Of a DNA stretch of 64,000 bases, positions 19,699 through 36,500 are shown piece by piece. How positions within the stretch are numbered: the stretch's first letter is position 1; each line of letters begins with the position of its first letter. The position numbers were made by a program, and so were the translations under genes. The notes under the pieces were generated by a model. It saw nothing but the letters and a program-made list of their open reading frames with translations. It was not told the DNA's origin and ran no database searches. Location: assembly GCF_004329815.1 (NCBI RefSeq), contig NZ_SJPE01000007.1:62001-126000 (forward strand), read 5' to 3'. The DNA is from Flavobacterium silvisoli. Lineage in GTDB: Bacteria; Bacteroidota; Bacteroidia; Flavobacteriales; Flavobacteriaceae.

Positions 19699-20670
19699 AT
19701 GAAAACTTATTATTTATTAGGCAAAAGAATATCCGTTTATTCCCTATTCGGATTTCTTGCTCTTGCCGTTACCTCATGTGGTTCTTACCAAAACAGCTCC
19801 TATTATGACGGAGACGGCATTTACGGAGGCTCTGAAAACAACCAAAGACAAACGACCTCAAACGATAAAAGCCAAAGCAGTAAATATCAGGAGTATTTCA
19901 GCAATCTGAACAGAGATGCGGAAATATTCACCAATGTTGACAACTATAGCACCGTAACCAACGACACCGTAAAAAAAACCGAGAGTTACAACGCCAATAA
20001 TTCAAGCTGGGGGAACAACCCACAATCAATAACTGTAAATGTTTACGACAACAGTTGGGGATGGAGTTATTGGAATAACTATTGGTATGGCAGTTATTGG
20101 GGATGGAACAGTTGGTACGGGCCTTATTGGGGATGGGGATGGAACAGTTGGTATGGACCCAGTTGGAGTTTAGGCATTGGTTGGAACAGTTGGTATAGCC
20201 CTTGGTATGGCGGATACTATGGTTACGGCTATAATAATTGGTGTTCTAATTATTACAATCATTACTACTATTCTTATGCCGGCGGCAGAAGAGGAACAAA
20301 TTACTACGGTTCAAGAAATGCAAACGGAAGAAGTTACACTAATTATACCAGAGGGTACAGAGACAGCTCACCCATCCTAAACGGCACCAGAGGTCAAAAT
20401 TTTGGTGGCAGAAATCAAAGCTTCGGCACTCCGAGAACTAATACTACGAATCCGGTCAGAAATAATTCTTACAGCACACCTCCTCGTGTAAATACTAACC
20501 AAAATAACACTACACCTACCAGAGGCAATATAAGATCACAGGAATCAGCACCTACCCGATCTTACACTCCAAGCACTAATTATGGTGGCGGACGCTCAAC
20601 CTATGGCGGCGGCAGCGGTGGCGGAGGAGGATTTAGTGGTGGAAGATCTTCATCAGGAGGCAGACGATAA
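19699..20670 (+). CDS. Trp/Tyr/Gly-rich lipoprotein, function unknown
   Basis: 323 residues. The start [21 protein letters not shown] and lipobox VTSC (Cys near residue 27) indicate an outer-membrane or periplasmic lipoprotein. Residues about 115-200 are an extraordinary low-complexity stretch built from variants of WGWNSWYGP and YGYNNW. A Ser/Asn/Arg/Thr-rich middle follows, and the C-terminus ends in glycine-serine runs ([13 protein letters not shown]). No catalytic motif is visible and I do not recognise a named family. The composition suggests a surface or matrix protein. It has its own terminator and precedes the FadL-like gene by 79 bp. Confidence 0.8.
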
Positions 20671-20692
20671 ATATGTTATAATGTCAAACCAT

Positions 20693-20730
20693 ACCTATGT
20701 TTTTGTTTTCACAATGACATAGGTTTTTTT
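20693..20730 (+). terminator. Terminator of the Trp/Tyr-rich lipoprotein gene
   Basis: 8-bp stem ACCTATGT (20693-20700) / ACATAGGT (20717-20724) with a 16-nt loop, followed by seven T residues. Confidence 0.75.
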
Positions 20731-20749
20731 AAACAAAAAATAATTTGCA

Positions 20750-22309
20750 ATGAAAAAAAACATACTACTATTGTTAACAGGTTTTGCTTTTTTAACTGCT
20801 CATTCGCAGGAAACCACACCGCAGGACGCTCTGAGATTTGCGGTTGAAAGCATTACAGGAACCGCGAGATTCAGAGCCATGGGCGGAGCCTTTGGAGCCT
20901 TAGGAGGTGATTTATCATCTTTAAATCAAAATCCTGCAGGATCTGTATTTTTCAATAACAACTACGCCACTGCCACATTGTCGAGCTACAATATTAAGAA
21001 CAGTTCCAGCTACTTCGGAACCAAAACAAAAGAAACAGACAACTCGCTGGACTTAAATCAAGCCGGAGTTGTTTTTGTTTTTACCGATAACAGTCCTAAA
21101 AATGATTGGAAGAAATTTACAATTGCATTGAATTATGAGAACAACAACAACTATCACAACAGTATTTTCTCAGCCGGAATCAACCCATACAATTCCATCA
21201 GCCAGTATTTTGTAAACCAAGCTAATGCTTTAGGAGGAATTCCGCTTGAATTATTACAAACCCTGCCTAACGAAACCTATGCTGACTTGTACAACTATCT
21301 GGGAGGCTTACCCAACGGTGATTATCCCAACATAAACGGTTTTCAGGCACAACAAGCTTTCTTTGGCTATCAAGGATACGCCATCAACCCAGTAACCAAT
21401 TCGCCGGGAAATACTGTTTACACGTCAAACGTACCGACGTCAAACAATTACTATCAGGATTATTACGACACTACTACCGGATATAGCGGAAAAGGAACCA
21501 TCAACTTTGCTACCGCATACAAAGACATCATATCGTTGGGTGTTAACCTGAATTTGCACTTTACCGATTTGACCAGAACTACATCTGTTTATGAAGATTA
21601 TAACATTAATGATTTGACCAAATTACAATCGCTCCAATTTGATACCGAGACTCATACTTACGGTCAAGGATTTTCATTTAATCTCGGAGCCATTGTCAAA
21701 GCCACTAAAAATCTGCGCTTAGGACTATCGTACGAGTCACCAACCTGGTACCGACTTCAAGACGAACAACGTCAAGTAATTTGTGCCGATTGTTATTCAA
21801 ATAACAGTAGTATTGTGGTTGACCCGAATACTATCATGATTTATCCATCATACAAAATTCAAACACCGGATAAATGGACCGGAAGTGCGGCATACATATT
21901 TGGTAAAAAAGGATTAATCAGTCTTGATGTTTCAACTAAAGATTACAGCACTACAAGATTCAAGCCCAAATACGATAAATTGTACCGCAGTCTGAATGAA
22001 GACATGAAAAACAACCTTGAAAGAGCGGTCGAAGTAAGACTTGGTGGTGAATACAGAATTAAGCAATTGAGTTTGAGAGGCGGTTACCATTTTGATCAGA
22101 GTCCGTATAAAGTTGATCAGGCCTTTGGTGATTTGACCGGCTACTCAACGGGAATCGGGTATAATTTCGGAGAAAGCAGATTGGATTTAGCCTATTCGTA
22201 CGAACACCGAAAAATGAATCAGGCTTTGATTTCATCAGGAATGACCGATCCGGCCCGTATAAGTCGCTATAACAACAATGTAACTCTCAGTTATTCCATC
22301 AATTTCTAA
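20750..22309 (+). CDS. OmpP1/FadL-like outer-membrane transport protein
   Basis: 519-residue outer-membrane beta-barrel with signal peptide (MKKNILLLLTGFAFLTAHS, cleavage before QETTP). The N-terminal part carries the family's GTARFRAMGGAFGALGGDLSSLNQNPAGSVFF motif, the plug segment of FadL/TodX-type barrels that import hydrophobic compounds. It ends in a beta strand with terminal phenylalanine (NNNVTLSYSINF), the barrel-assembly signal. Flavobacterial members are generally annotated only as hemin receptors or hydrophobic-compound transporters; the substrate is unknown. It lies between its own upstream terminator and one downstream, hence is monocistronic. Confidence 0.88.
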   Translation: MKKNILLLLTGFAFLTAHSQETTPQDALRFAVESITGTARFRAMGGAFGALGGDLSSLNQNPAGSVFFNNNYATATLSSYNIKNSSSYFGTKTKETDNSLDLNQAGVVFVFTDNSPKNDWKKFTIALNYENNNNYHNSIFSAGINPYNSISQYFVNQANALGGIPLELLQTLPNETYADLYNYLGGLPNGDYPNINGFQAQQAFFGYQGYAINPVTNSPGNTVYTSNVPTSNNYYQDYYDTTTGYSGKGTINFATAYKDIISLGVNLNLHFTDLTRTTSVYEDYNINDLTKLQSLQFDTETHTYGQGFSFNLGAIVKATKNLRLGLSYESPTWYRLQDEQRQVICADCYSNNSSIVVDPNTIMIYPSYKIQTPDKWTGSAAYIFGKKGLISLDVSTKDYSTTRFKPKYDKLYRSLNEDMKNNLERAVEVRLGGEYRIKQLSLRGGYHFDQSPYKVDQAFGDLTGYSTGIGYNFGESRLDLAYSYEHRKMNQALISSGMTDPARISRYNNNVTLSYSINF

Positions 22310-22330
22310 CAAAAATAAGAATCTATTAAA

Positions 22331-22357
22331 ACCACTTAAACAAAGTGGTTTTTTTAT
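22331..22357 (+). terminator. Terminator after the FadL-like gene
   Basis: 8-bp stem AACCACTT (22331-22338) / AAGTGGTT (22344-22351), loop AAACA, T-run to 22357. Confidence 0.85.
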
Positions 22358-22397
22358 TTTAACAGTTAAGCTTCTCTTTTAATTTGAAATAAAAGCG

Positions 22398-22405
22398 TAG
22401 TTTTG
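22398..22405 (+). promoter_or_regulatory. -7 box TAGTTTTG of rimO
   Basis: Exact TAnnTTTG, 19 bp before the ATG at 22425. No TTG lies at the usual distance upstream. Confidence 0.5.
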
Positions 22406-22424
22406 CACTCCAATTTTCAAATCT

Positions 22425-23726
22425 ATGAGAACTAAGTCTTTAAAGAAAAATAAAATCAACGTTATCACATTGGGTTGTTCCAAAAACACCTACGACAGTG
22501 AAGTCTTAATGGGTCAATTAAAAGCCAGCGGTAAAGATGTGGTACACGAACAGGAAGGAAATATTGTTGTGATTAACACTTGTGGTTTTATTGACAATGC
22601 AAAAGCCGAATCGGTAAATACGATATTGGAATACGCCGACAAAAAAGACAAAGGTCTCGTTGATAAAGTTTTTGTGACCGGATGTTTATCTGAAAGATAC
22701 CGTCCTGATTTGGAAAAAGAAATTCCCAATGTAGATCAGTATTTCGGGACAACTGAATTACCTTTATTATTAAAAGCCTTAGGTGCCGATTACAAACATG
22801 AGCTATTGGGTGAGCGTTTGACGACTACTCCGAAAAATTATGCCTATTTGAAAATTGCCGAAGGTTGTGACCGTCCCTGCAGTTTTTGTGCTATTCCCAT
22901 CATGAGAGGTAAGCACATTTCTCAACCGATAGAGAAATTGGTAAAAGAAGCTGAAGGTTTGGCAAAAAACGGCGTAAAAGAACTGATTCTTATTGCACAG
23001 GATCTGACCTATTACGGATTGGATTTATACCAAAAAAGAAATTTAGCCGAATTGCTTGAGAACCTGGTAAAAGTTGAGGGTATTGAATGGATTAGATTGC
23101 ATTATGCTTTTCCGACCGGTTTCCCTATGGATGTTTTAGAGTTGATGAAACGGGAGCCTAAAATTTGTAATTACATCGATATTCCGTTGCAACACATTTC
23201 AGACAACATTCTGAAATCTATGCGCAGAGGAACTACTAAAGCTAAAACGACAAAATTACTACAGGATTTTCGTGCGGCTGTTCCGGGTATGGCTATACGC
23301 ACTACATTGATTGTTGGATATCCTGGCGAGACTCAGGAAGATTTTGAAATATTGAGAGATTGGGTACAGGAAATGAAATTTGAACGTTTGGGCTGTTTTA
23401 CTTATTCACACGAAGAAAACACTCATGCCTACTTACTAGCGGATGATGTACCTGAAGAGGTAAAACAAGCCCGAGCAGCAGAAATCATGGATTTACAGTC
23501 GCAAATCTCATGGGATTTGAATCAGGAAAAAATCGGACAAACCTTCAAATGCATTATTGACCGAAAAGAAGGGCAGCATTTTGTGGGAAGAACAGAATTT
23601 GACAGCCCTGACGTAGACAATGAAGTATTAATTGATGCCTCAAAGTTTTATGTCAAAACAGGTGAATTTGTCAACGTAAAAATTACTGACGCAACCGAAT
23701 TCGATCTTTACGGCGAACCGGTATAA
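22425..23726 (+). CDS. rimO: Ribosomal protein uS12 methylthiotransferase RimO
   Basis: Radical-SAM enzyme that adds a methylthio group to the conserved Asp of ribosomal protein S12. The 433-residue protein has the UPF0004 domain with its three cluster cysteines (GCSKNTYDSEVL, NTCGFIDNAKAES, VTGCLSERYRP). The radical SAM C-x3-C-x2-C is seen in EGCDRPCSFCAIPIMRG, and a C-terminal TRAM domain in GQTFKCIIDRKEGQHFVGRTEFDSPDVDNEV. NTCGFIDNAKAES and the CAIP signature favour RimO over MiaB. It is a single gene bounded by terminators. Confidence 0.95.
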   Translation: MRTKSLKKNKINVITLGCSKNTYDSEVLMGQLKASGKDVVHEQEGNIVVINTCGFIDNAKAESVNTILEYADKKDKGLVDKVFVTGCLSERYRPDLEKEIPNVDQYFGTTELPLLLKALGADYKHELLGERLTTTPKNYAYLKIAEGCDRPCSFCAIPIMRGKHISQPIEKLVKEAEGLAKNGVKELILIAQDLTYYGLDLYQKRNLAELLENLVKVEGIEWIRLHYAFPTGFPMDVLELMKREPKICNYIDIPLQHISDNILKSMRRGTTKAKTTKLLQDFRAAVPGMAIRTTLIVGYPGETQEDFEILRDWVQEMKFERLGCFTYSHEENTHAYLLADDVPEEVKQARAAEIMDLQSQISWDLNQEKIGQTFKCIIDRKEGQHFVGRTEFDSPDVDNEVLIDASKFYVKTGEFVNVKITDATEFDLYGEPV

Positions 23727-23731
23727 AATAA

Positions 23732-23763
23732 AAAAGCTCCAATTTTATACTGGAGCTTTTTTA
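23732..23763. terminator. Bidirectional terminator between rimO and the barrel gene
   Basis: 10-bp stem AAAAGCTCCA (23732-23741) / TGGAGCTTTT (23751-23760) with A-run and T-run flanks. It ends directly at the stop codon of the convergent gene (23764). Confidence 0.88.
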
Positions 23764-24642
23764 TTAATAACTAAAGCTTATTCCGGCAACCAAAAAATTA
23801 TTACCAAAGGCTTCCGTATTGTGCTTTGCTCCGTTATGGGTGTAACACAAGGACACCGGCATGGCTATACCGGCACCCAAATCAAATTCTTTAGTAGCTT
23901 TGATGCCCATATTCACGAATGAAACTTCATCATAATCGGCATAAGAATAATAACCGGCTTTGTTGTTCAAAACAGCTCCAATTACGGGAGCTAATTCCAT
24001 TGAACGGATTGCTTTACAAACAGATTTTTCAAACAACGTAAACGTGTAACCTAACTCTAAATACGTGGTAAAGTTCTGCTTAGCATTCTCTCCGTTGCTG
24101 TCATACCGATAATCATTTCCGGCAATCAGGGTGCTTATGGTAGCGTTAAACGGAAATTTATATCCCTCTGAAAAATCAAAATACAGTATAGCATCTACTG
24201 TTTTAGACCCGTCTTTTCCGTAATTGAAAAAACCGTTGTTAATGCCTTCCACTTTACTAACTGATGGCCAGTAATAATCCCAAACCTGTAACTGCAAAAA
24301 ATCGGCAAGTGTATACGTTACATAAAAATCAATTTCCTGATATCCTTTGTAGGCTGTTTCCCCATCTGGATAAAAATAATCATTCTTAAAATTAGTTGTT
24401 GCCCAAAACCCCAATGATAGCTTTGGGGTAACAGCATACTGAATTGTTGGTTGCACCACAACGTAGTCACCTCCCCAACACTGACCGCGCCAAAGATAAC
24501 GGCTGAAAAAATCAACCCTGAGATCCAACCGTTTCTTGTTTTCAACGTTAGCGGTATCTATTTCAACTTGAGTTGTCTGAGAGAACCCAACGACAGAAAT
24601 CAACACTAAAAGAAATACAAAGAATAGTCTGTTAGGCTTCAT
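23764..24642 (-). CDS. Predicted outer-membrane beta-barrel protein
   Basis: 292 residues with signal peptide (MKPNRLFFVFLLVLISVVGFS, cleavage before QTTQ). The mature protein opens with RLDLRVDFFSRYLWRGQ, the S-R-Y-x-W-R-G segment typical of TorF-like and related small putative porins. Alternating aromatic strands continue throughout, and the last residues form a barrel-terminal strand (LVAGISFSY). Its ATG overlaps the stop of the hybrid kinase gene by 11 bp, so the two are co-translated. This suggests the barrel is either regulated with the kinase or part of the sensed pathway. The substrate is unknown. Confidence 0.78.
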   Translation of the reverse strand: MKPNRLFFVFLLVLISVVGFSQTTQVEIDTANVENKKRLDLRVDFFSRYLWRGQCWGGDYVVVQPTIQYAVTPKLSLGFWATTNFKNDYFYPDGETAYKGYQEIDFYVTYTLADFLQLQVWDYYWPSVSKVEGINNGFFNYGKDGSKTVDAILYFDFSEGYKFPFNATISTLIAGNDYRYDSNGENAKQNFTTYLELGYTFTLFEKSVCKAIRSMELAPVIGAVLNNKAGYYSYADYDEVSFVNMGIKATKEFDLGAGIAMPVSLCYTHNGAKHNTEAFGNNFLVAGISFSY

Positions 24643-26740
24643 TGGTTTGCTGTTTATGTAAATATTGATCCACCAATTCGAACAATCGTTCCCGATTTAA
24701 TGGTTTTGTAATATAATCTGTAAATCCGGCTTCTTCAATTTTGATTTTGTCCTCCGATGAGGAATAAGCCGTTTGTGCAATTACAGGCAGCAAGGGACGA
24801 ATGGGTCTTATTTGCTCTAAAGCTTCAAAGCCGTTCATCAAAGGCATTTTAATATCCATTAATACTAAATCAACCTCAGGATTATTGATGCAGATATCTA
24901 CAGCTTCCTGCCCGTTGATAGCTCGTAAAATCTTGAAATTTTTGTTTTGCATCATCTTTTGAAACAACAGAAAATTGATATTATCATCTTCTGCAATCAA
25001 AATAACCTGTTCTTCAGACTTGGTAGTTTCCTTACTTTTAATGGATTTCACAACGATATGCTCAACTTTGGCATACTGTAACGGAATTGAGAAATAAAAC
25101 GTGGATCCCTCCCCTACTCTTGATTTCAAATTAATAGTTCCGCCAAGAAGTTCAACATATGCTTTGGAAATGGCTAATCCGAGCCCCAGTCCGCCAACTT
25201 TGACGGAAATATCGCTGTCAACGCGTTTGAATCGGTCGAAAATATTTTTGTGATTGTCTTCATCTATTCCCAAACCGGTATCTTTTACCATGAAATTGAT
25301 TTGTCCTTTTTGCTCATCAATTTCATACCCAAACGTTACTTCGCCTTCATCTGTAAACTTGACGGCATTGGTTACCAAGTTAATAATCACTTGTTTTAAT
25401 TTAATATCGTCGGTAATGATATTGAACTCTGCCGGAGTTTTACTTGGAATTAATTTAAAATCGATTGCTTTATTTTTAATGGTAATCCGAATGGTTTCGT
25501 AAAGCTCATTGACACATGACTCCAAATTAACCACAGTAAAGTTCGGTGTTATTTGATTGGAATCAATCTTGGACATCTCAATTAAATCATCAATAATGGA
25601 AACTAAATTTTTACCGCTTTTTTCAATAACGTTCAGGTATTCTAGCTTTTCCGTTTCGTTGACATTGGTATTAATGATGAGCTCGGTGAATCCGTTTATG
25701 GCATTCATAGGCGTACGGATTTCATGGGATAAATTGGCCAAAAAAGACGATTTAAGCCTGTCACTTTCCTCTGCTTTTATTTTAGCTTTTATCAATTCGA
25801 TTTTCTGATTGCTGTTTTCCTCAAACAAATTACCAATATAACTGAATTCACCCGTAGTCTTTTTTAGTTCTTTGATGGCTTTTTTGTTTCCGGTTTCGAG
25901 TACTCTTCTGACCAAATCCAAGGGGTGATAAACCAATCGTCGGGTATAAATCAAACTAACCAAAAGATTCACAAAAAATGCCACTATCATGACATACAGC
26001 AAGTTTGTGGTATTTTCAAAATAAACAGCGAAATTTCGTTTGAACAAAAGTCCCCCTATCAATTTACCATTGCTGTCTTCCAAACGATAAAGTGATTTGA
26101 TTTTTTTATTGTCATCAGTCAACGAAACTTTATCTACCAAGAGTTCAATTTCTGAACTGGTCAACTTCTCCAGATCTTTAAGGAACTTTTTGTCTACTAA
26201 TCTAACTACGAAGAAAAAACCTGCTGCCTGCTTTTTATTTTTAAACGGATCGTCTGAAGGATGAATGGCAGCACCCGTCACTTCTGCAATTCCTTCGGGA
26301 ATTTTTATGTAAAATTTATTGATGCCGACTTTCTTCAACAATTCCATTTCCTGTTTCGGAATGAAATCAACCGATTTTATTTTGGGGGTCGGAGTTCTGA
26401 TGATAAAATTTTTATTAGCGTCGTAAACGCCCATATAATCCGCTTCATAAATAGACAACTCATTCCCAATAGATTCCTCGTACCATTTCACATCCCGGTT
26501 TGCAATAAATTTGACAAACTCATCCCAGTTTGTGTCGTTATTGATGGCTACCAGTATGGGTTTTGCATTAACCTCGAGCGACTTATTAACCTCATTATCA
26601 AACTGATCAACCGAATTAGCGTACACCTGCTTCTCGGCTTTTTTGGTATAATAAAACAACGCAAAATATAGTATGATAAAAAAAATACTCGATGATATAA
26701 TCAGCCAAAGTATTTTGGGAAATGTCTTTTTCAGTGTCAT
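24632..26740 (-). CDS. CHASE4 hybrid sensor histidine kinase/response regulator
   Basis: 702-residue inner-membrane hybrid kinase. TM1 is about residues 10-32. A periplasmic CHASE4-like sensor domain follows (NDTNWDEFVKFIANRDVKWY, YMGVYDANKNFI), and TM2 is near 245-265. The H-box has H339 in LSHEIRTPMNAINGF. The N-box is NLVTNAVKFTDEG, and the G-boxes are KDTGLGIDED and GGLGLGLAISK. A C-terminal receiver domain has the likely phosphoacceptor D629 in VLMDIKMPLMNGF and the conserved Lys in ITKPLNRE. Phosphate would pass from H339 to D629, but no output protein is encoded nearby. The ligand is unknown. Confidence 0.93.
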   Translation of the reverse strand: MTLKKTFPKILWLIISSSIFFIILYFALFYYTKKAEKQVYANSVDQFDNEVNKSLEVNAKPILVAINNDTNWDEFVKFIANRDVKWYEESIGNELSIYEADYMGVYDANKNFIIRTPTPKIKSVDFIPKQEMELLKKVGINKFYIKIPEGIAEVTGAAIHPSDDPFKNKKQAAGFFFVVRLVDKKFLKDLEKLTSSEIELLVDKVSLTDDNKKIKSLYRLEDSNGKLIGGLLFKRNFAVYFENTTNLLYVMIVAFFVNLLVSLIYTRRLVYHPLDLVRRVLETGNKKAIKELKKTTGEFSYIGNLFEENSNQKIELIKAKIKAEESDRLKSSFLANLSHEIRTPMNAINGFTELIINTNVNETEKLEYLNVIEKSGKNLVSIIDDLIEMSKIDSNQITPNFTVVNLESCVNELYETIRITIKNKAIDFKLIPSKTPAEFNIITDDIKLKQVIINLVTNAVKFTDEGEVTFGYEIDEQKGQINFMVKDTGLGIDEDNHKNIFDRFKRVDSDISVKVGGLGLGLAISKAYVELLGGTINLKSRVGEGSTFYFSIPLQYAKVEHIVVKSIKSKETTKSEEQVILIAEDDNINFLLFQKMMQNKNFKILRAINGQEAVDICINNPEVDLVLMDIKMPLMNGFEALEQIRPIRPLLPVIAQTAYSSSEDKIKIEEAGFTDYITKPLNRERLFELVDQYLHKQQTNEA

Positions 26741-26944
26741 TTTATCAGATTCACAATTTAATTACAGCTTTTAAAAGTAAACTAATTTTATGGGTTGCTA
26801 TCGAGAGACCCTAAAAGAAATTAACAAATTATTTAGACATTTCAATATTGCTTAATTTGTTTTTTTTAGTCATTTAAGCCTATCTTAAGTCCCGTTAATC
26901 TTAAAAAAAGTACCTTTACCAAAGTAATTTTAAGACTGTTTGTT

Positions 26945-27940
26945 ATGAACAAAATCATTGCTGTAGGTCTTCTTCTTTTTGTGGTCATGGGCTATTCTCA
27001 AGAGCCAGTAAAAATTGAAGGTTTTGCACAAGGAACTACCTACCACATCACCTATTTTGATGCTAAAAACCGCAATCTTCAGCCTGAAATCGATACGCTT
27101 CTAAGGCAATTTGACTTATCGGTTTCAACATATATTCCCAATTCGATTATATCAAAAATCAACAGCAACAAGCCTAATATAAAAGCAGATGACTACTTCA
27201 TCACTTGTTTTAAAAAAGCCAAAGAAGTGTGGAAAAATACTCATGGTGCTTTTGACCCAACGGTTTATCCCTTAGTCAACGCTTGGGGGTTCGGTCCGGG
27301 AAAAAAACAAAAGATAGAAAAAACCAAAATCGACAGCATGCTTCAATTTGTAGGTTTCGGTTTAATTGAGTTGAAAGGAAAGCACGTTGTCAAGAAAGAC
27401 CCGAGGGTGGCTCTTGATTTTAATGCCTTTGCCCAGGGATATTCTGTAGATGTGGTTTCCGATTTTCTGAAATCAAAAGGAATTCAAAACTTTATCGTTG
27501 AAATTGGCGGTGAAGTTTATGCTCACGGCAAAAAGCCCAATGGTGAACACTGGAAAGTGGGTATTGAGCAACCTTATGACAATAAGGAAACTGAAAATCC
27601 GTATAACATAATCGTCAATCTCGAAAATTTAGCATTGGCCACCTCTGGTAATTACCGACGTTTTATAATAGAAAACGGAATAAAATATGCGCATCACCTC
27701 GATCCCAAAACCGGCTACCCGACCAAAAACAACTTACTTAGTGCTTCTGTTTTTTCCAAGCAATGCATTGCATCAGATGCTAATGCCACCGGTATCCTGG
27801 TAATGGGACTGGAAAAAGCTAAACTGTTTTTGAAACAACATCCCGAATTACAAGCTTATCTGATTTATTCGGACGAAAACGGCAATTTCAAAACTTACGC
27901 CACTGAGGGTTTTGCCGCCTTAATTGAAAAGACAAAATAA
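26945..27940 (+). CDS. apbE: FAD:protein FMN transferase ApbE
   Basis: Exported Mg-dependent enzyme that cleaves FAD and attaches FMN to a Thr/Ser of target proteins. 331 residues with signal peptide (MNKIIAVGLLLFVVMGYS, cleavage before QEPV), so it acts in the periplasm. Family motifs are GFAQGTTYHITYF, DPTVYPLVNAWGFGPG, LDFNAFAQGYSVD, IVEIGGEVYAHGKKP, LATSGNYRRF, the H-x-L-D-P-x-T-G-Y-P motif in YAHHLDPKTGYPT, and the metal-site region SDANATGILVMG. It converges on an operon whose last gene encodes a DUF2271 protein with a flavinylation motif, the likely substrate. No Nqr or Rnf genes, the usual ApbE substrates, are in the window. Confidence 0.95.
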   Translation: MNKIIAVGLLLFVVMGYSQEPVKIEGFAQGTTYHITYFDAKNRNLQPEIDTLLRQFDLSVSTYIPNSIISKINSNKPNIKADDYFITCFKKAKEVWKNTHGAFDPTVYPLVNAWGFGPGKKQKIEKTKIDSMLQFVGFGLIELKGKHVVKKDPRVALDFNAFAQGYSVDVVSDFLKSKGIQNFIVEIGGEVYAHGKKPNGEHWKVGIEQPYDNKETENPYNIIVNLENLALATSGNYRRFIIENGIKYAHHLDPKTGYPTKNNLLSASVFSKQCIASDANATGILVMGLEKAKLFLKQHPELQAYLIYSDENGNFKTYATEGFAALIEKTK

Positions 27941-27941
27941 A

Positions 27942-27974
27942 AAAGCACCTATTCATCTAAAACAGGTGCTTTCT
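27942..27974. terminator. Bidirectional terminator between apbE and the DUF2271 operon
   Basis: 9-bp stem AAAGCACCT (27942-27950) / AGGTGCTTT (27964-27972). It lies between the apbE stop and the convergent DUF2271 stop at 27992. Confidence 0.85.
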
Positions 27975-27991
27975 CGTTTAAAAAAAATGGG

Positions 27992-28843
27992 TTATTTATT
28001 GACTATAACCTCGAAGTTCGAAATTCCGTTATCATTCTGTAGGCTGATGATATAAGTTCCGTCGGTTAAATTCGAGAGATTAACCTGTATCGTGTTTGCT
28101 ATCGCATTCGGATTTACTTCTTCAGAGTAAACTGTTTTGCCTAACAAATCATAAACGCGTATATTTTTTACTTCATTTTTCATATCAATATTGAAAATAC
28201 CGGTCGAAGGCACAGGATAAATCGAGACCACCGGACTGGAGTTTTCCTGAACTCCCATAGAGTCGGGTAACCAATGCAACGTAACCGTATTGATGTACGT
28301 ATCGCCGGCCGGGGTCAATGTTTGTTCCGTAGGACCTTTGGTAAACGTGAATCCGATTAATTCATTATGAATGTTATTCGCTCCGTCATTCCAGGAACTT
28401 TCCACCCAAATTTTATAGGTACCGTCCACAACCGTTGTTCCGTTGGTGGTACCTACTACGTTTTTGCCATCCCAAGTAATGGTTTTGGTTCCGAAAGCAG
28501 TTGGTGTTGTTGAAGTAGTTCGGGTGGCTCCTGTAGAGGCATCTGTAACATTACAGGCAGATCCTGTTGCAATTGTGGTATTGGCACACCCCGATTTGCT
28601 GGCCCATGTAGGCAAATGATCATCAGTAGATGTAGAAGTGTAACGGCATTTGGTTTTAATAAATGTTCCGGCTGCATTTTCAATCCAAACGGCGTAAACA
28701 TTTTTAACTCCCTGATTTAGAGATGGACTTGTCGGTTGTGGTTGATTGTATGTAAATGTCAGTGTTCCTGCAGTTTGTGCGTTCACATTGGCGACAAAAC
28801 AAAACATGACAACCAAACCTAACTTCAGTAGTGCTTTTTTCAT
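27992..28843 (-). CDS. DUF2271 flavinylation-target protein with T9SS type A sorting domain
   Basis: 283 residues: signal peptide (about 1-22, cleavage before QTAG), a DUF2271-like domain (about 25-170) and a C-terminal T9SS type A sorting domain (about 205-283). The DUF2271 domain holds D101-A-S-T-G-A-T107 followed by R, matching the D-x-x-[ST]-G-A-[ST] motif at which ApbE attaches FMN; T107 would be the modified residue. TITWDGKN and DGTYKIWVESSW are typical of this domain. The tail has VSIYPVPSTGIFNID, VYDLLGKTVYS and LTDGTYIISL, as in type A sorting signals, so the protein should be exported to the cell surface or medium. Flavin attachment and surface location are inferences from motifs. 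It is the last gene of a five-gene operon. Confidence 0.88.
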   Translation of the reverse strand: MKKALLKLGLVVMFCFVANVNAQTAGTLTFTYNQPQPTSPSLNQGVKNVYAVWIENAAGTFIKTKCRYTSTSTDDHLPTWASKSGCANTTIATGSACNVTDASTGATRTTSTTPTAFGTKTITWDGKNVVGTTNGTTVVDGTYKIWVESSWNDGANNIHNELIGFTFTKGPTEQTLTPAGDTYINTVTLHWLPDSMGVQENSSPVVSIYPVPSTGIFNIDMKNEVKNIRVYDLLGKTVYSEEVNPNAIANTIQVNLSNLTDGTYIISLQNDNGISNFEVIVNK

Positions 28844-28884
28844 TTTAATTGTGGTATTTGTTCATTATGTTGATTAAGGAAAAT

Positions 28885-29418
28885 TTATTTGTTTTCCATG
28901 GGTAATTTCAGTGTAATCTTGGCGGTCTCAGCCAATGTTTTTTTGGCTAAGGCCGGAACAGCTATATTGTAATCGGATAATTTTACCGTAAAACCACCGG
29001 ACAACATTAATTTGCTGCCCTCGGGAGCGATATTCATTTTGGTTTTTACTTTATTGGTAACACCGTGTATGGTTAAATCTCCTTCAACATCATAGTTCCC
29101 CGATTTGCCATCATAGCCCAATACTTTTCCTTTAAAGTTGGCTTTGGGCAATTTGTCACTTTCCATATAGTTTTCGTTGAAATGTTCCTCCATCAAAGGC
29201 AGTTTGAATTTGAACGATTTTACCATCGCCTGAACGACTAGTTCTCCGGTAGCTTTATCGAAAATGCTGGAAACCGTGCTGTTGGTTGCATTAACCATGT
29301 CTGTAGCTCCGGGTACGGTAGCATCAAATTTTATTTCGCCAGAGCGGGTCAGCATCTTTTGCGAAAATCCTATTCCGCAGCACAATAGGGCTGCTGTAAT
29401 GATAATTACTTTTTTCAT
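28885..29418 (-). CDS. YceI-like domain protein
   Basis: 177 residues starting at MKKVIIITAALLCCGIGFSQ (ATG 29418); a longer in-frame start lacks a clean signal. The mature part is a lipocalin-like YceI domain: LTRSGEIKFDATVPG, SFKFKLPLMEEHFNENYMESDKLP, GNYDVEGDLTIHGVTNKVK. YceI proteins bind isoprenoid-like or amphiphilic molecules such as quinones in the periplasm. The gene starts 11 bp after the haem lipoprotein stop and precedes the DUF2271 gene by 41 bp, so it is in the same operon. A role as lipid or quinone carrier for the redox proteins around it is inference. Confidence 0.88.
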   Translation of the reverse strand: MKKVIIITAALLCCGIGFSQKMLTRSGEIKFDATVPGATDMVNATNSTVSSIFDKATGELVVQAMVKSFKFKLPLMEEHFNENYMESDKLPKANFKGKVLGYDGKSGNYDVEGDLTIHGVTNKVKTKMNIAPEGSKLMLSGGFTVKLSDYNIAVPALAKKTLAETAKITLKLPMENK

Positions 29419-29429
29419 AGTTGTATTTT

Positions 29430-29771
29430 TTATTCTTCTTTTAAACCTTGTGCTACCCAAGCATTAAACATATCAATTTGTACCTGAGGCAGTCTACCGC
29501 TTTGTGGCATTAATCCACAGGAATTACCGTCGAGTCTGCAAGAAATTGACTCCGCGTAATCAACCACTTGTTGGTAGGTTTCGAGCGGAGAACCTGATTC
29601 GGTCCCATTGGCACTGTGACATGACACGCATTGGGCATCCATAAGGGGTTTTATATTGGCTTTGTATGTCGGATTTTCAACATATCCAAAAATATCGGCA
29701 TAAGTGTCGGATTCACAAGACGTAACAAATGAACCAAGGACGAGTAACAAAATAACTTTTACTGCTTTCAT
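29430..29771 (-). CDS. Monohaem c-type cytochrome-like lipoprotein
   Basis: 113 residues starting at MKAVKVILLLVLGSFVTSC; the lipobox Cys is residue 19, giving a lipid-anchored envelope protein. A single haem c site C-V-S-C-H is at about residues 47-51 (ANIKPLMDAQCVSCHSANG). A Met in CGLMPQSGRLP could be the sixth ligand, and a W-V-x-x-G-L ending resembles cytochrome c-type domains of planctomycete and Bacteroidota surface proteins. Two additional cysteines (SCRLDGNSC) may form a disulphide. It starts 4 bp after the DUF5777 stop. An electron-transfer role next to a flavoprotein is inference. Confidence 0.85.
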   Translation of the reverse strand: MKAVKVILLLVLGSFVTSCESDTYADIFGYVENPTYKANIKPLMDAQCVSCHSANGTESGSPLETYQQVVDYAESISCRLDGNSCGLMPQSGRLPQVQIDMFNAWVAQGLKEE

Positions 29772-29775
29772 AGTC

Positions 29776-30642
29776 TTAAAAAACTCTATATAAATTAAAT
29801 CCAAAATAAATACTTCCGCCGTTCCATTTGCCTGTGGCATTGGTAAAGTAGGCAATGTCGTTCATTGGTTGTGCGCTCGAAAACACCAACTGAAATACGT
29901 GACCTCCGGTGTCAATATCAAATCCGGCGGTTAACGGATTGTGGTAGTATTCATGCTCTTCCGGATTCACACGTGCGGCGTATTCTAAATTAAAACTGAT
30001 GCGTTTTGATATTTTACAACGTCCTCCCATCCCTACAACAAACTGATCTTTTTTATCGGTACCGGGCTGTAAATCGTAGAGGTTTTTGTGAATGAAAGCC
30101 GGAACTATTTCCAAGGAAAGGGCATCTGAGAATTTTCTCGAAATCAACAACTGGGTTGAATAGGCCAATCGGTTAGATTCTTTAAAATTCGGATACAATG
30201 CTTTATCAAATTTGGAACCGTTGACATCCATAGTATTATACCCTACAATAGTCACCGGAAATCCGTCTTCCATTTGATTAGCCAATCGGTATTTTAAACC
30301 GGCTTCAAATGTTTTGTTATACGTATGGCGGGCCAAACTGATATTTAACCAATTGGTTATCCCATAAATTCCGCCAATTTTTGTCAGGGCATTATCGAAA
30401 CCGAAGAAATTGTTGATTCCTTCTTTCAAATCACCAAAACGGTGAGATACTAAAAAATACCATTCATTTTTGTTGGTCATTTTGGTGGATTGCATGTTGC
30501 AAACCTGTAATCCTTTGAAGGCAGATGCTGTGATTTCTTTTTGTTTTGGCACCGAATCGAGTTCACTCATTAAATCCTGTGCACTTGCTGTATGGAAAGC
30601 AAAGAGCAGGAATGCAGAACCCGCAATTTTACATAATTTCAT
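29776..30642 (-). CDS. DUF5777 family outer-membrane beta-barrel
   Basis: 288 residues with signal peptide (MKLCKIAGSAFLLFAFHTASA, cleavage before QDLM). Family features are FKGLQVCNMQSTKMTNKNEWYF, SHRFGDLKEGINNFFGFDNA, and repeated amphipathic strands such as ITNWLNISLARHTYNKTFEAGLKYRL. The terminal strand, SIYFGFNLYRVF, ends in Phe as expected for Bam-inserted barrels. It starts 7 bp after the OB-fold gene stop and ends 4 bp before the cytochrome gene, so these are coupled. Possible roles are as a porin sheath for the haem lipoprotein or a binding partner of the surface flavoprotein; neither is shown by sequence alone. Confidence 0.83.
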   Translation of the reverse strand: MKLCKIAGSAFLLFAFHTASAQDLMSELDSVPKQKEITASAFKGLQVCNMQSTKMTNKNEWYFLVSHRFGDLKEGINNFFGFDNALTKIGGIYGITNWLNISLARHTYNKTFEAGLKYRLANQMEDGFPVTIVGYNTMDVNGSKFDKALYPNFKESNRLAYSTQLLISRKFSDALSLEIVPAFIHKNLYDLQPGTDKKDQFVVGMGGRCKISKRISFNLEYAARVNPEEHEYYHNPLTAGFDIDTGGHVFQLVFSSAQPMNDIAYFTNATGKWNGGSIYFGFNLYRVF

Positions 30643-30649
30643 TTTAATT

Positions 30650-31048
30650 CTATTTATTGGTTGATAAGTTACATTGATCCAGTTTCAATTCGCCAAAAAG
30701 ATCATCAAAGCCCACCACACGACCTTTAACAATTACTTTTTGATTTACTTTTACGGCCGGATTAGCCGTTGCAAAAATGCAGTTTACGGTGTTATCTAAA
30801 ATTACCCCGGCAGCATTAACCGAAGTAACCGTGCCGGATATGGCCACCGGTTTTTCAAGATACTTTTTATTGGAAGCCTCTGTATTAGAGGTAAACTCAG
30901 CAACTATAGAAGATGAAGTGACTGTGAAAGCCGTTTCTTCCGATTGTATATCGCGTTGGCCTCCGTGATATACATAATAGCGAACAGAAAAAAAGCCAAT
31001 GGCTATAATGATGATTATAAAAACTAAAACTTTGGTCTTCTTGCTCAT
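30650..31048 (-). CDS. Membrane-anchored OB-fold (tRNA_anti-like) protein
   Basis: 132 residues: an N-terminal membrane anchor (KVLVFIIIIIAIGFFSVRYYV), a linker, and an OB-fold of the tRNA_anti-like family (KYLEKPVAISGTVTSVNAAG, KVNQKVIVKGRVVGFDDLFGELKLDQC). In Bacteroidota such proteins are envelope proteins often found beside DUF5777, YceI and cytochrome genes. The name does not mean it binds tRNA. It is the first gene of the operon that ends with the DUF2271 flavoprotein. Its role is unknown. Confidence 0.82.
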   Translation of the reverse strand: MSKKTKVLVFIIIIIAIGFFSVRYYVYHGGQRDIQSEETAFTVTSSSIVAEFTSNTEASNKKYLEKPVAISGTVTSVNAAGVILDNTVNCIFATANPAVKVNQKVIVKGRVVGFDDLFGELKLDQCNLSTNK

Positions 31049-31092
31049 AATTAGGATTCTTAAAAATGTTTAAAAGATTCCTGCATATGTAA

Positions 31093-31125
31093 CAAATGTA
31101 TAGCCAATTGAATCTTCTATTGGCT
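31093..31125 (-). promoter_or_regulatory. Promoter and candidate operator of the redox operon
   Basis: Minus-strand -7 box TACATTTG is at 31093-31100, 44 bp before the first ATG. Directly upstream lies an inverted repeat, AGCCAAT (31102-31108) and ATTGGCT (31119-31125), filling the place of the spacer and -33 element. No TTG is at the normal spacing. Near-copies of TTAGGATTCTTAA also occur at 31051-31063 and 31154-31167, flanking the promoter. This points to regulated transcription by an unknown factor. Confidence 0.5.
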
Positions 31126-31191
31126 TAAACATACAGTGTTAAAAAAACCCTACTTAGGATTTCTTAAGATTAATCAGTTGTTAAAAAAAAA

Positions 31192-33417
31192 CTATAATGT
31201 CAACAACCCAAAATGGCGCAATGTTGCCATGGGTTTGGCATACCAAAACATTTCAAAATCATCAAATTGCATTTCATAATCAGCTTTGAGCTGGGCAAAA
31301 GTAAAGTTCTGTTCATTAGTTACCGACAAATTATTCAATTGAGCTGACAACCATATTCCTTTTTCTTTTTCAACCGAAATGGTGACTTCATCAAGGTTGT
31401 TATGAAAACTCAGTTGCATCATCTCCCAAGTATTTCCTTTCTTGGATTTAGTAACAATTTCGGTAGTTGGTTTACCTCCAAGCCAAATAATTTTGGCAGA
31501 TGCTTTAGTAGAGAACGAATGATCTTTTTCCAAAGCGTTTAAAATAAAGTTAGGCGGAACGGTAGTTTTCGGTATTTTGAAATCAAACCAATCCTGCAAC
31601 GCATACTCAAAACAAATACCGTGCATGTAGTTAAACAGGGATTTTTTCAGTCCGAAACTGAACTTGTCGTGGTTGATGCCTGTTTTGTCTTTGAATTGGA
31701 TATCGTTATTGGCGAAAGAAATTGGGTTGGTTTCGGGAATTACTCCAAACTCTTCAGGAAACATGCCTACCGGACTGTGGGCTGTCATGGCAAATTGGTG
31801 CCAAAATCCGGACTGAATGATTCCCAGTTCAAACAATTGACGAACCATTTCCAAACTGTCGACAGTTTCCTGTACGGTTTGTGTTGGGTAACCATACATC
31901 AAATAGGCATGTACCATAATCCCGCTTTCGGTAAAATTACGGGTAACCTGTGCTACTTGCTCTACCGTCACTCCTTTTTTAATTAGTTGCAGCAAGCGGT
32001 CTGAGGCCACTTCCAATCCACCCGAAACCGCTATACATCCTGAAGCTTTAAGCAGAACGCATAAGTCTGCCGTAAAACTTTTTTCAAAGCGAATGTTAGT
32101 CCACCAAGTAACGGTTAAATTGCGGCGTAATATTTCCAAAGCCAGTTCACGCATCAATGCCGGCGGTGCCGCTTCATCTACAAAATGAAAGCCGTTTTCA
32201 CCGGTTTGCGCGATGAGTTCTTCCATTCTGTCGACCAATATTTTTGCAGCAATAGGTTCATAAATTTTAATGTAATCGAGTGATATGTCACAAAAGGTAC
32301 ATTTTCCCCAATAACACCCGTGAGCCATGGTGAGCTTATTCCAGCGGCCATCACTCCACAAACTGTGCATAGGATTGGCAATTTCTATTACCGAAATGTA
32401 TTGATCGAGCAATAAATCAGTATAGTCAGGTGTTCCGACCTGTGATTGTTTGTAGTCAGACTGCAGAGCGTTATTTTTATAAACCACTTCCCCATTTTCG
32501 ATGAGAAATGTTCTTTTGAAGAGCAACTCACCATCGTTATTTTGTTTATTGCTTGATGGTTTTGTTTGACAAACAGCTTTAAAAAGTAACTCAACGGGAA
32601 GTTCACCATCGTCTAGAGTGATGAAATCAAAGAATTCAAACACCCTTTTATCTTTCAAATCTCTGAGTTCAGTATTGGGGAAACCGCCTCCCATAGCTGT
32701 CTTTACAGAAGGATACTTCTTTTTTATGAATTGAGCCACTCTGAAGGCACTGTACAAATTACCGGGAAATGGAACTGAGAGGCAGACCAATTGAGGTTGT
32801 GTTTCCTCGAGTTGCTTTTCAAGAATTTGCATAGTAATGGTATCAATATAGGTGAGTTCCTTTTGCAGGTAAGCATACAACTCATCAAACGAGTTTGCAC
32901 TTCTCCCTAATCGCTCAGCATAACGACTGAAGCCGAAATTTTCATCGACACAGGCTATGATAAAATCGGATAAATCATCGAGGTAGAGCGTGGCCAAATG
33001 CTTGGCTTTGTCCTGCATACCCATGGATCCGAAAGCCCATTCCATATCATCTAACTGCTCAAAACGGGAAGCTTGTGGGAGGAAATTACCGGAACACAGT
33101 TGGCGTGCCATAGTCGGGTTTTTGCCTTGCAGAAATTCAATTACAGAGTCTATGGTTTTGATATACTGCTGTTGCAGGGCAAATATTCGCTGCAGGTTGT
33201 GTTCTTCTTTTATTACTGTAGGGTTATTCAAAGCAGCATGATTGAAGATGCTTTGCAGACCTCTTTTTGAAAAAATATTGAGTATCACTTCAATCCCTAA
33301 ATCCATTTGGCGGCTGGAAATGCTTTTGGTGTTCAAAAATCCTTTCAAATAAGCCGTTGCAGGATAAGGCGTATTGAGCTGGGTAAAAGGCGGCGTGATG
33401 AGCAGGAGGTCTTTCAA
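31192..33417 (-). CDS. Cobalamin-binding-type radical SAM protein
   Basis: About 741 residues. I choose the TTG at 33417 (giving MKDLLLITPPFTQLNTPYPATAYLKGF), because no ATG fits and a TACTTTTG -7 box lies at 33434-33441 inside the longer TTG frame. The N-terminal half resembles a B12-binding domain (VCLSVPFPGNLYSAFRVAQF, TAMGGGFPNTELRDL). The radical SAM part has HGCYWGKCTFCD, where the first two cysteines are four residues apart (C-x4-C-x2-C) instead of three. SAM-domain motifs continue with GFHFVDEAAPP and GGLEVASDRLL. The substrate is unknown; such proteins do methylations, cyclisations or lipid or peptide modification. It is not in an operon. Confidence 0.85.
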   Translation of the reverse strand: MKDLLLITPPFTQLNTPYPATAYLKGFLNTKSISSRQMDLGIEVILNIFSKRGLQSIFNHAALNNPTVIKEEHNLQRIFALQQQYIKTIDSVIEFLQGKNPTMARQLCSGNFLPQASRFEQLDDMEWAFGSMGMQDKAKHLATLYLDDLSDFIIACVDENFGFSRYAERLGRSANSFDELYAYLQKELTYIDTITMQILEKQLEETQPQLVCLSVPFPGNLYSAFRVAQFIKKKYPSVKTAMGGGFPNTELRDLKDKRVFEFFDFITLDDGELPVELLFKAVCQTKPSSNKQNNDGELLFKRTFLIENGEVVYKNNALQSDYKQSQVGTPDYTDLLLDQYISVIEIANPMHSLWSDGRWNKLTMAHGCYWGKCTFCDISLDYIKIYEPIAAKILVDRMEELIAQTGENGFHFVDEAAPPALMRELALEILRRNLTVTWWTNIRFEKSFTADLCVLLKASGCIAVSGGLEVASDRLLQLIKKGVTVEQVAQVTRNFTESGIMVHAYLMYGYPTQTVQETVDSLEMVRQLFELGIIQSGFWHQFAMTAHSPVGMFPEEFGVIPETNPISFANNDIQFKDKTGINHDKFSFGLKKSLFNYMHGICFEYALQDWFDFKIPKTTVPPNFILNALEKDHSFSTKASAKIIWLGGKPTTEIVTKSKKGNTWEMMQLSFHNNLDEVTISVEKEKGIWLSAQLNNLSVTNEQNFTFAQLKADYEMQFDDFEMFWYAKPMATLRHFGLLTL

Positions 33418-33556
33418 CTGGAGTAACTTTTTACAAAAGTAAAAGAAAAACAGCAAACACTGCTATGGGTTTTGAAAGCAATAACCAATCACTTTTTTTA
33501 CAAAAAAAATCTTTCTTTTTTCAAAAAACTTAACACAATCAAAACAAGAACTTTCT

Positions 33557-33564
33557 TATATTTG
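33557..33564 (+). promoter_or_regulatory. -7 box TATATTTG of the T9SS surface protein gene
   Basis: Exact TAnnTTTG, 25 bp before the ATG at 33590. No TTG is at the standard upstream distance. Confidence 0.5.
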
Positions 33565-33589
33565 TTTTTCTCTTGAAATCTAAAGCTCA

Positions 33590-36500
33590 ATGAAGTCAAT
33601 TATTTACGTATGCTGTTTGCTGTCAATACTGAATGTTTTTGGTCAAAACAAGCCACAAAAAACAACCGTTATTTTTGATAGCAACAAAAAAATAGAAGAC
33701 CGAAACGGTCATTTGATAACCGATTCTATTGAGCGAAAAGTTTTTTTTGAGCATCAGATGAGGCAATTGGAGTTACTTCAAAAAAACAGCTCTAAGTCTA
33801 CTATGGCGCTCCCGGCAGTTCCTTTGTGCACCAACGGCAGCTTTGAAGAATTCGAAACTGTTTCCAGCGTAAACGTTTTAAAGAATTATGAATACACCAC
33901 TGGAGAACCTTTAAATCCGATGCAGTGTAAATCGGTTTCAGCAAATGCCAATCTGAGAATCAAACAATACAATCCCGCTGATTATGGATTAATGGCTTCC
34001 ACTGTTCCTTCAAACTTTATTGATGAATACATAGGAAACATCAATGCTTTTGATCAGTATACGTTAAAAATCAACTACAAAGATTCCTCTCCCACCATGG
34101 GATTGATTCAAGCCAAACGCTACAAAACAGATAATGAAACTATTTTCAAATTTAATTACAAAGCGGTTTTACAAAGTATACTTGAAAACGATCATGATAA
34201 TGAACAACCCTATTTTAAGGCAAGAATTATCAATAATTCAGGTGTTGTAGTAAGTGAATTTTGTTTGATTGGCAATCCCGCAGATTGTATTTTCACACAG
34301 GCTCCCACACTTGAAGGAGGAAGCATCATTCTGTATACCCCAAACTGGCAATCGGGAATATTGGATATTTCCAGCATTCCGAACAATCAGGAATTTACCG
34401 TTGAATTTATGGCTGCGCGCTGCGGTTTAAATGGTCATTTTGGGTATGCCTACATAGACGACATTTGCTTATTGCATTCCGATGAAAGTTTGCAAGGCAG
34501 CATTGAATTAGATCCTTTGTACAAAATTTGTCCAACCTTGCCGATATCCGTTTGCGGCAGTTTCAGCTTGCCTAACTCCGGAGGCATCAATGCTAATATA
34601 ACTACAATTGAATTAAAAGTTTACGATGAAAACAATGCGGTTGTTTATTCTACCCAAACACCGGCTTCACTTAATTTAATAACCAAACGATTTTGCTTTG
34701 ACTTAGTTGCAGCAAATTTGCCCAACATTACCACCGGAAGCTACAATGTAAGTGTTAAAATAAATTTCGGTATTGTACAAACCAATTGTTTGGGAACCAG
34801 TTTTGCTTCGGCAACAGATGACGATGCTAATCCGGGCTGGGATATTTGGTTTTTAAACTGCACCAGCTGTGACCTAACGCTTCAACCGACTAATATTACA
34901 TTATGTGATACCAATCACGACGGAAAAGAATTCTTTAATCTTTCCAGTATAGAAAACACGATTACCACTCCGCAGCCGGGTCTTACTTTCAGTTATTATT
35001 CCAATTTAGCGAATGCTACTAACGACACTAATCCTATCACGACTGTCACTAATTTTGAAAGTCCGACAACTACGGTTTATGTCAGAGTAACACTGAGTCC
35101 GACTTGTTATAAAATCATTGCCATCAAATTAATTGTGCGTAATCCAACTGCTTCAATAAGCGGAATTTTGAATGTTTGCAGCGGCAGTACCGTTTTAACT
35201 GCCTCGCCCGGAGCCGGCTATCTGTGGACCAATAGCTTAGAAACCACACAAAGCATCACCGTTACATCAACCGGCACCTACTCAGTAGCCGTAACCGACA
35301 GCAATGGCTGTGTGGCCAATGGAACCGTTACCATTTTAAACAACAATATTGCTCCGTTGCCCAGTATTGTACTTACACAACCAACTTGTTTCAGCAGCAC
35401 CGGTTCTATACAAGTTACCTCACCAGCATCTGAATTCAGCTATGACGGAGGTGTCACTTGGGGGACTAATCCTATTATGAGTAATCTCCCTTACGGAAGC
35501 TATGCTGTTAAAATAAAAACGGCAATGGGCTGTATTTCATACAACTCGAATGTAAATATTATCCCCTATTTATCTTCATTTCCCAATTTTTCATCGGTCA
35601 GCCCAACAAGTTGCGGTGGCTTGGGAAGCATAACCATTACCTCCCCTTCTGACTTTTACAGTTTTGATGACGGCCTTACCTGGACGACCGACAATGTAGC
35701 CACGGGATTGCCATCGGGAACATATTTGATAAGAACAAAGGATTCTTTTGGTTGTATTTCAAATTTCAACAGCGTAATACTGAGCAGTGAATTTTTAGAC
35801 CCTCCACTTTACATCAAAGACAATCCCTTTTGCGGTTCTCCCGGAAGTATTATTATTACCACACCGGCTGCCGAATACAGTTTTGACGGAGGAAATACAT
35901 GGCAAACTTCAAATACACTGGGTAATTTATCCAGCGGCAGCTACATCATTAAAATAAAAAACAGCCAAGATTGCACCTCACCTAATGTTTATGTATACCT
36001 GAATAATTTAGAAAACAGCTATCCGTTGTATACTCTAGAAGATGCGGGATGCGGTACTTATGCTAAAATAACCATTCAAACACCTGGAGATTTTTACAGT
36101 TTTGACGGCGGAACCACCTGGACAACCAATCCGGTGCTGACCAATATAAACGGACCCGCTTCTTTTTCAGTAATAGTCCGAAAAGGAGCAACGTGCAAAT
36201 CGTATCCGACCAATGTATACGTTTATTCACAATTTTTGCCTATTCCAAGTGTCATGAATTATGCCACTACCTTATGTGATGCACTGAATGATGGCTCAGA
36301 AAATGTAAACTTAACATTATACCACTCCTATCTTGTTGTCAACCCAACCGCATACTCCTATACTTACTTCAATAATTTAACAGCAGCTGAAAACAACAAT
36401 TCATCAGGATTGATTACCAACTTTACCAGTTGTAACCTAAGCAATACCAACAACAAAGTTTATGTTAGAATAACTTCGACCGACGGTTGTTCTGCTGTAG

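Follow-up and report, generated by a model that had tools for sequence, protein, structure and literature searches.

The window analysed here is a 64,000-nt stretch of the Flavobacterium silvisoli genome (NZ_SJPE01000007.1, positions 62,001-126,000), in which a closely spaced run of genes lies on the minus strand from 31048 to 27992. The first gene of the run (30650..31048) encodes an OB-fold (tRNA_anti-like) protein (PF12869, 38.7 bits) with an N-terminal membrane segment recognised by eye, and is followed by a gene for a DUF5777 outer-membrane barrel (29776..30642; PF19089, 273.9 bits), modelled with 12 strands by AlphaFold2 (mean pLDDT 81.5) and with the NanC porin as its best Foldseek match (E 1.1e-6). 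Next come genes for a one-heme c-type cytochrome with a lipobox (29430..29771, with an inner ATG as start; one CXXCH, lipobox VTSC), which scores 26.1 bits with the PccH model (cut-off 24.4), and for a YceI-family protein (28885..29418, also with an inner ATG as start; PF04264, 58.3 bits). The last gene (27992..28843) encodes a 283-aa protein which, from the ORF translation, Pfam and NCBIfam, joins a DUF2271-like domain to a T9SS type A sorting tail. Convergent with it on the plus strand, at 26945..27940, is apbE, encoding an FAD:protein FMN transferase (PF02424, 273.5 bits) with a signal-peptide-like start as judged by eye; 51 bp separate the two stops.

Domains and fold of the DUF2271-like protein

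The N-terminus of the 283-aa protein reads MKKALLKLGLVVMFCFVANVNA followed by QTAG, and the AlphaFold2 model has a helix at residues 2-17. The initial annotation had claimed a signal peptide, for which the typical shape of residues 1-22 (28778..28843, minus strand) speaks, although that shape was judged only by eye from the translation. Residues 48-185 (28289..28702, minus strand) match PF10029 (DUF2271) with 24.2 bits (E 3e-5), and an overlapping FlgD_ig match in Pfam is about as strong (26.8 bits, below its cut-off of 27); because the PF10029 score is below the gathering cut-off of 27.3, we name the domain DUF2271-like. Some relatives pass the PF10029 cut-off (35.1 bits in L083, 38.3 in L088 and 37.0 in L079).

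The C-terminus was borne out as a type A T9SS domain. Residues 208-282 (27998..28222, minus strand) match TIGR04183 of NCBIfam with 36.7 bits (cut-off 23), and residues 208-274 match Por_Secre_tail (PF18962) of Pfam with 48.8 bits (cut-off 27). In the AlphaFold model of the whole protein (mean pLDDT 90.4, pTM 0.69) the tail is matched by four T9SS cargo tails (8gl6_D, 8gl8_D, 8glk_D and 8qb1_A; Z 9.1-9.7), including those of RemA (RemA-CTD, 8gl6_D; Z 9.7, 74 aligned, 2.0 Å) and NucA (8glk_D; Z 9.1, 73 aligned, 2.4 Å), T9SS type A cargo with which the window protein shares the sorting domain in both sequence and fold. The fold match is unspecific, with DUF3244 structures at Z 9.9 and an FN3 fragment at Z 9.3. 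As tail matches filled the lists of the fold searches, Foldseek included, these results concern the tail and hardly the DUF2271-like half, and we therefore confine the fold claim to the tail. A profile search for PorU among T9SS components found this sortase in the same genome with 1395.9 bits (cut-off 420).

A predicted flavinylation site in register with ordinary DUF2271 proteins

Codons 101-107 on the reverse strand, from 28543 to 28523, are GAT GCC TCT ACA GGA GCC ACC and spell D-A-S-T-G-A-T, as the initial annotation had stated, with coordinates that proved exact when the minus strand was re-read. DASTGAT holds the [ST]GA[ST] flavinylation motif of ApbE substrates, and from codon positions and alignment register T107 is the predicted FMN acceptor. 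The strict form, D..[ST]GA[ST], arises in 0.43% of 100,000 shuffles of the window domain, and was present in 3 of 704 other ORFs of at least 150 aa (spurious ORFs included) from the loci described below; its presence in 45 of 84 homologous ORFs at the aligned site thus exceeds chance.

Of 21 loci with ordinary DUF2271 genes from Bacteroidota, 19 have an ORF of 159-166 aa bearing (D/S)(A/G).[ST]GA[ST]; at the other two (L129 and L131) the matching frames are about 510 aa and no ORF with [ST]GA[ST] was found. In the window's genus, the motif of several ordinary DUF2271 proteins reads SAKTGAS, in which the Asp is missing. Alignment by hhalign of 68 members of the window protein's family (alignment A3) with 12 of the 19 ordinary ORFs (alignment A2), the 19 having been selected for holding [ST]GA[ST], gave a probability of 87.5 and an E-value of 3.6e-6, with the motif residues aligned one to one. 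Assignment to DUF2271 by the initial annotation thus stood as regards homology and motif register, although the Pfam score falls short. The annotated tie between DUF2271 and ApbE was also sound: according to PMC8238504, one DUF2271 protein, of Amantichitinum ursilacus, is a proven substrate, flavinylated by its ApbE, and a T-to-A change abolishes the modification. The window protein resembles the PF10029 substrates of that text in having a related domain, [ST]GA[ST] in register and apbE nearby; from the ordinary Bacteroidota proteins, in which there is no space for a tail, it differs in being divergent and T9SS-tailed.

The tail is near-constant among relatives

The database search for other DUF2271-T9SS fusions that the initial annotation had suggested returned many. 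Scanning genome_contigs (one genome per species, 84,980 species) with patterns that leave out the motif gave 78 loci, 77 of which together with the window form the counted set of 78; L087 was dropped as it had no ORF match, and L032 and L033, duplicates of L052 and L072, were excluded from the counts, which are not independent as several loci share one MAG. The start is truncated at a contig end in L086. All loci are from Bacteroidota wherever the group is named, and nearly all from MAGs; the five species-named, non-MAG loci are of F. gelidilacus, F. aquatile, F. alvei, Kaistella gelatinilytica and Yeosuana aromativorans.

The T9SS tail was present in 81 of the 84 homologous ORFs, window included (68/68 members of A3 and 13/16 of the ORFs omitted from it on account of length or by manual choice, which were scanned separately), and absent from three short ORFs (L068, L095 and L106:7947). 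This frequency, together with a window tail that scores far over both curated cut-offs, argues against a flavinylated protein that stays inside the outer membrane, whether in the periplasm or on the membrane's inner face, and partners the cytochrome, YceI and DUF5777 proteins there, its tail little used or serving as a tether. That the partners are predicted envelope proteins would suit such a location, as would the lack of room for a tail in the 19 ordinary DUF2271 ORFs, and we consider it highly improbable.

Six loci (L042, L061, L071, L079, L088 and L106) have two or three copies of the gene. Eight members are long, with 509-1063 aa (L049, L055, L058, L071, L079, L083, L084 and L099); PKD or Ig models match six of them (E <= 0.01, some below cut-off), and each holds at most one strict motif.

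A full-length query against 397 family genomes matched 301 of them; among the matches listed, with at most six candidates scored per genome, just two others span the whole length. Since the tail had swamped this search, later searches were made with the domain alone. A domain profile (A5) matched 7 of 395 phylum genomes, with 191.9 bits for the window genome and 44.8 for the next, and the variant is therefore rare in that phylum sample.

apbE beside the gene and elsewhere in the genome

In 47 of the 78 loci an apbE gene is found no more than 500 bp away, in convergent orientation in 45; when only loci whose contig continues for 1.2 kb or more downstream are counted, the figure is 43/67. The F. 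aquatile gene is one that does not adjoin apbE. Convergent gaps measured 44-59 bp in 31 of 46 cases. For the loci without apbE, searching of 24 genomes found it elsewhere in 22, covering 26 of 28 loci (L045 and L061 left out), relative to 131 of 198 genomes of a phylum sample (Fisher p 0.0096, although sampling differs between the two sets). The profile search of the window genome gave no FMN_bind match, and its other apbE stands beside a DUF3570 gene, which makes the window protein the obvious candidate substrate. This second apbE (L147:6931-9710, contig C23) adjoins thioredoxin-like and DUF3570 genes; the product of the latter has AVTGGVGTE near its start, and no [ST]GA[ST] was seen in it by eye. 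DUF3570 is described as another ApbE substrate in PMC8238504.

The motif varies while apbE and the gene run are kept

At the aligned site the strict motif is present in 45 of the 84 homologous ORFs, window included, and the looser [ST]GA[ST] in 57, and so, from these alignments, the motif is not constant across the family. Among the 50 ORFs that have apbE no farther than 500 bp away, 13 lack [ST]GA[ST]. Motif and apbE adjacency were not associated (p 0.16 for [ST]GA[ST], p 1.0 for the strict form; tree-aware pairs were too few for a test), and the idea that motif loss follows apbE loss gained no support. Several lineages that keep apbE and the operon genes have motif-less loops such as GITTTST or GGTSSST. 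L036, the sister of the window protein in the tree, has the same partner genes, apbE within 500 bp and the loop DALTGTT. On a domain tree built with the motif columns removed, motif states cluster, yet 16 changes of the strict state are required, of which starred branches force 7 or more. In the starred clade to which the window protein belongs, 11 of 12 rows, counting the window, keep the strict state.

Conserved ApbE blocks, which we take to be those of the active site, are largely intact at the motif-less loci, with 1 of 12 having the T of the PKTG block replaced by R, and so ApbE may act at these loci on another substrate or on a relaxed site. A further, intact copy of the gene elsewhere in motif-less genomes was also considered and rejected, as 11 of 13 genomes searched have a single copy. 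Extra copies occur in G705 and G708, and one in each bears GATTGAT, which is [ST]GA[ST] without the Asp. Loss of the motif while apbE and the operon stay would mean that flavinylation is not fixed in the family, that ApbE tolerates other sequences, or that it has another substrate.

The tolerant enzyme would accept a relaxed loop, with T107 and variable preceding residues, and the motif-less members would be flavinylated too. Such tolerance would fit a T or S at residue 107 in 83/84 ORFs and the retention of G105 in 74/84, as well as the Asp-less SAKTGAS of the window's genus; the loop is S/T-rich, however, and residue 104 is also T or S in 82/84, and conservation of T107 by itself therefore proves little. 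To our knowledge there is no case of ApbE acting on TTST-like sites, and we judge a relaxed site to be quite unlikely.

If ApbE modifies another protein, the window protein could be exported for a binding or structural role as an Ig-like protein, its S/T-rich loop unflavinylated. The lineages that dropped the motif and kept apbE and the operon genes are in its favour, as are the FlgD_ig match and the PKD or Ig matches of the long relatives. Against it, in the loci with a non-strict ORF, no non-homologous ORF of at least 100 aa has the strict motif, the sole strict hit beside non-strict ORFs (L106:8884-9684) being itself DUF2271-like with a tail; the lack of an FMN_bind match in the window genome and the persistence of the strict motif in the starred clade also count against an Ig-like role, which we regard as unlikely.

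Redox genes around the relatives

The cytochrome, YceI and DUF5777 genes occur together in 29 of the 78 loci, in 26 of them with apbE as well, and all five partners (OB-fold, DUF5777, cytochrome, YceI and apbE) in 21, counted by presence and not by order. CXXCH ORFs number 48 in 976 kb of relatives' loci, spread over 38 of the 78; 29 are the module's own cytochrome, leaving 19. Other loci totalling 173 kb have 1, although this control is small and taxonomically narrower. Outside the module, the window's remaining 59.8 kb contained no CXXCH ORF of at least 90 aa.

ORFs with at least five CXXCH are present in five of the 78 loci (L079, L084, L101, L106 and L109), among which only L079 adjoins apbE, as none was found in the covered stretch of the other four. 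The ORF in L084 is a collagen-like protein with cytochrome matches below cut-off; multiheme cytochromes and b561 are found at L079, L101 and L106. L101 has DUF5777, a 7-CXXCH cytochrome and b561, with a one-heme cytochrome immediately ahead of the DUF2271-like gene, whose loop is DATTGST. Opposite the DUF2271-like genes, L106 has genes for cytochromes with 20 and 12 CXXCH, for b561 and for an NAD(P)/Fe-S oxidoreductase, and L047 encodes a Rieske protein. These neighbours point to electron transfer.

Two of these loci have more than one DUF2271-like gene. L079:1-12332, densely packed with redox genes, encodes a 19-CXXCH protein matching b561 below cut-off, another with 5 CXXCH, two with a single CXXCH each, DUF5777, ApbE and three DUF2271-like proteins with the T9SS tail, and L106:7947-16325 encodes two DUF2271-like proteins, the first of 178 aa and without a tail.

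A proposed surface flavoprotein

We put at roughly 60% the probability that the window protein is an ApbE-flavinylated, T9SS-exported surface flavoprotein that acts as an electron relay. Sec would carry the protein to the periplasm, where the DUF2271-like domain would fold and the neighbouring ApbE would move FMN from FAD onto T107. The folded C-terminal domain would then be recognised by the T9SS, the flavoprotein would cross the outer membrane and PorU would remove the tail, placing the flavin domain at the surface or in the medium as an electron relay tied to the heme lipoprotein and outer-membrane barrel of the operon. The direction of electron flow and the partners are guesses. What the sequences themselves show is the gene content, the motif, the tail, and the operon genes with their conservation. 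We infer FMN attachment from another DUF2271 protein (PMC8238504) and T9SS export of folded cargo from relatives (PMC9251779); the latter describes the T9SS as moving folded cargo, with which a flavin bound in the periplasm might travel out. The initial annotation's interpretation, a flavin bound in the periplasm and then exported, is partly supported by the adjoining apbE, the register of the motif, the near-constant tail, PorU and the redox neighbours, and is weakened by the lineages that keep apbE and operon genes without the motif. The lack of association between motif and apbE adjacency, the window's sub-threshold DUF2271 score and the fact that L079 alone of the five multiheme loci adjoins apbE also count against the proposal. 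The surface-redox role is predicted.

MtrCAB-type systems are multiheme porin-cytochrome conduits. The window locus is like them in combining electron carriers with an outer-membrane barrel, and unlike them in that no multiheme cytochrome with a large porin was found in the window, which has a predicted 12-strand barrel and one one-heme cytochrome lipoprotein. PplA is an example of surface flavin electron transfer in Gram-positive bacteria. Such flavin-based transfer in Gram-positives is cited in PMC8238504, and the window system would share with it an ApbE-attached flavin expected at the cell surface, and would differ in having an outer membrane to cross, a different domain and heme partners. 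The same text ties DUF2271 to PepSY and DUF4198 genes, unlike the window locus with its cytochrome, YceI and DUF5777 neighbours.

Flavinylation of DUF2271 by ApbE and T9SS tails are each already known; what appears new is both joined in one protein. Neither a flavinylated T9SS cargo nor a report of a T9SS-tailed DUF2271 was found in the open-access literature searched, although the latter may sit unremarked in the supplementary tables of PMC8238504. The terms 'T9SS', 'type IX' and 'YceI' are absent from the main texts of PMC8238504 and PMC11334425; for type IX secretion together with flavinylation, ApbE or multiheme cytochrome, the open-access literature searched contained nothing on point, flavinylation being named next to type IX secretion only in the title of a reference. 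Nor did that literature mention DUF5777, or ApbE together with flavinylated cell-surface proteins of Bacteroidota.

More tentatively, and with the odds against it, the loci may represent a so far undescribed outer-surface electron-transfer system of Bacteroidota with an ApbE-flavinylated T9SS cargo as terminal carrier, in which DUF5777 and the heme lipoprotein at the outer membrane would receive electrons from b561 on the quinol side and from one-heme or multiheme cytochromes, and hand them to FMN at the surface; in some relatives the flavoproteins would be tandem or PKD-extended. If true, this would be a Gram-negative counterpart to the surface electron transfer by flavins in Gram-positives and would explain what a gene set recurrent in Bacteroidota, DUF5777 included, is for; a covalent cofactor added before T9SS export would also provide a clean test of cofactor-loaded folded cargo. 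The motif-less relatives next to a conserved ApbE are a natural experiment in ApbE specificity.

Other genes near the module

FecR-like and TonB-plug-like genes recur near the module in L038-L042 and L047, mostly with an ECF sigma gene too, suggesting possible surface-signalled regulation at those loci; none of the three was among the ORFs clustered from window positions 20001-37000. Beside apbE in the window, at 23764-26740, are a Gcw_chp-like gene (match below cut-off) and a gene for a CHASE4 hybrid histidine kinase; Gcw_chp-like genes were present in 4 relatives' loci and kinase-like genes in 13.
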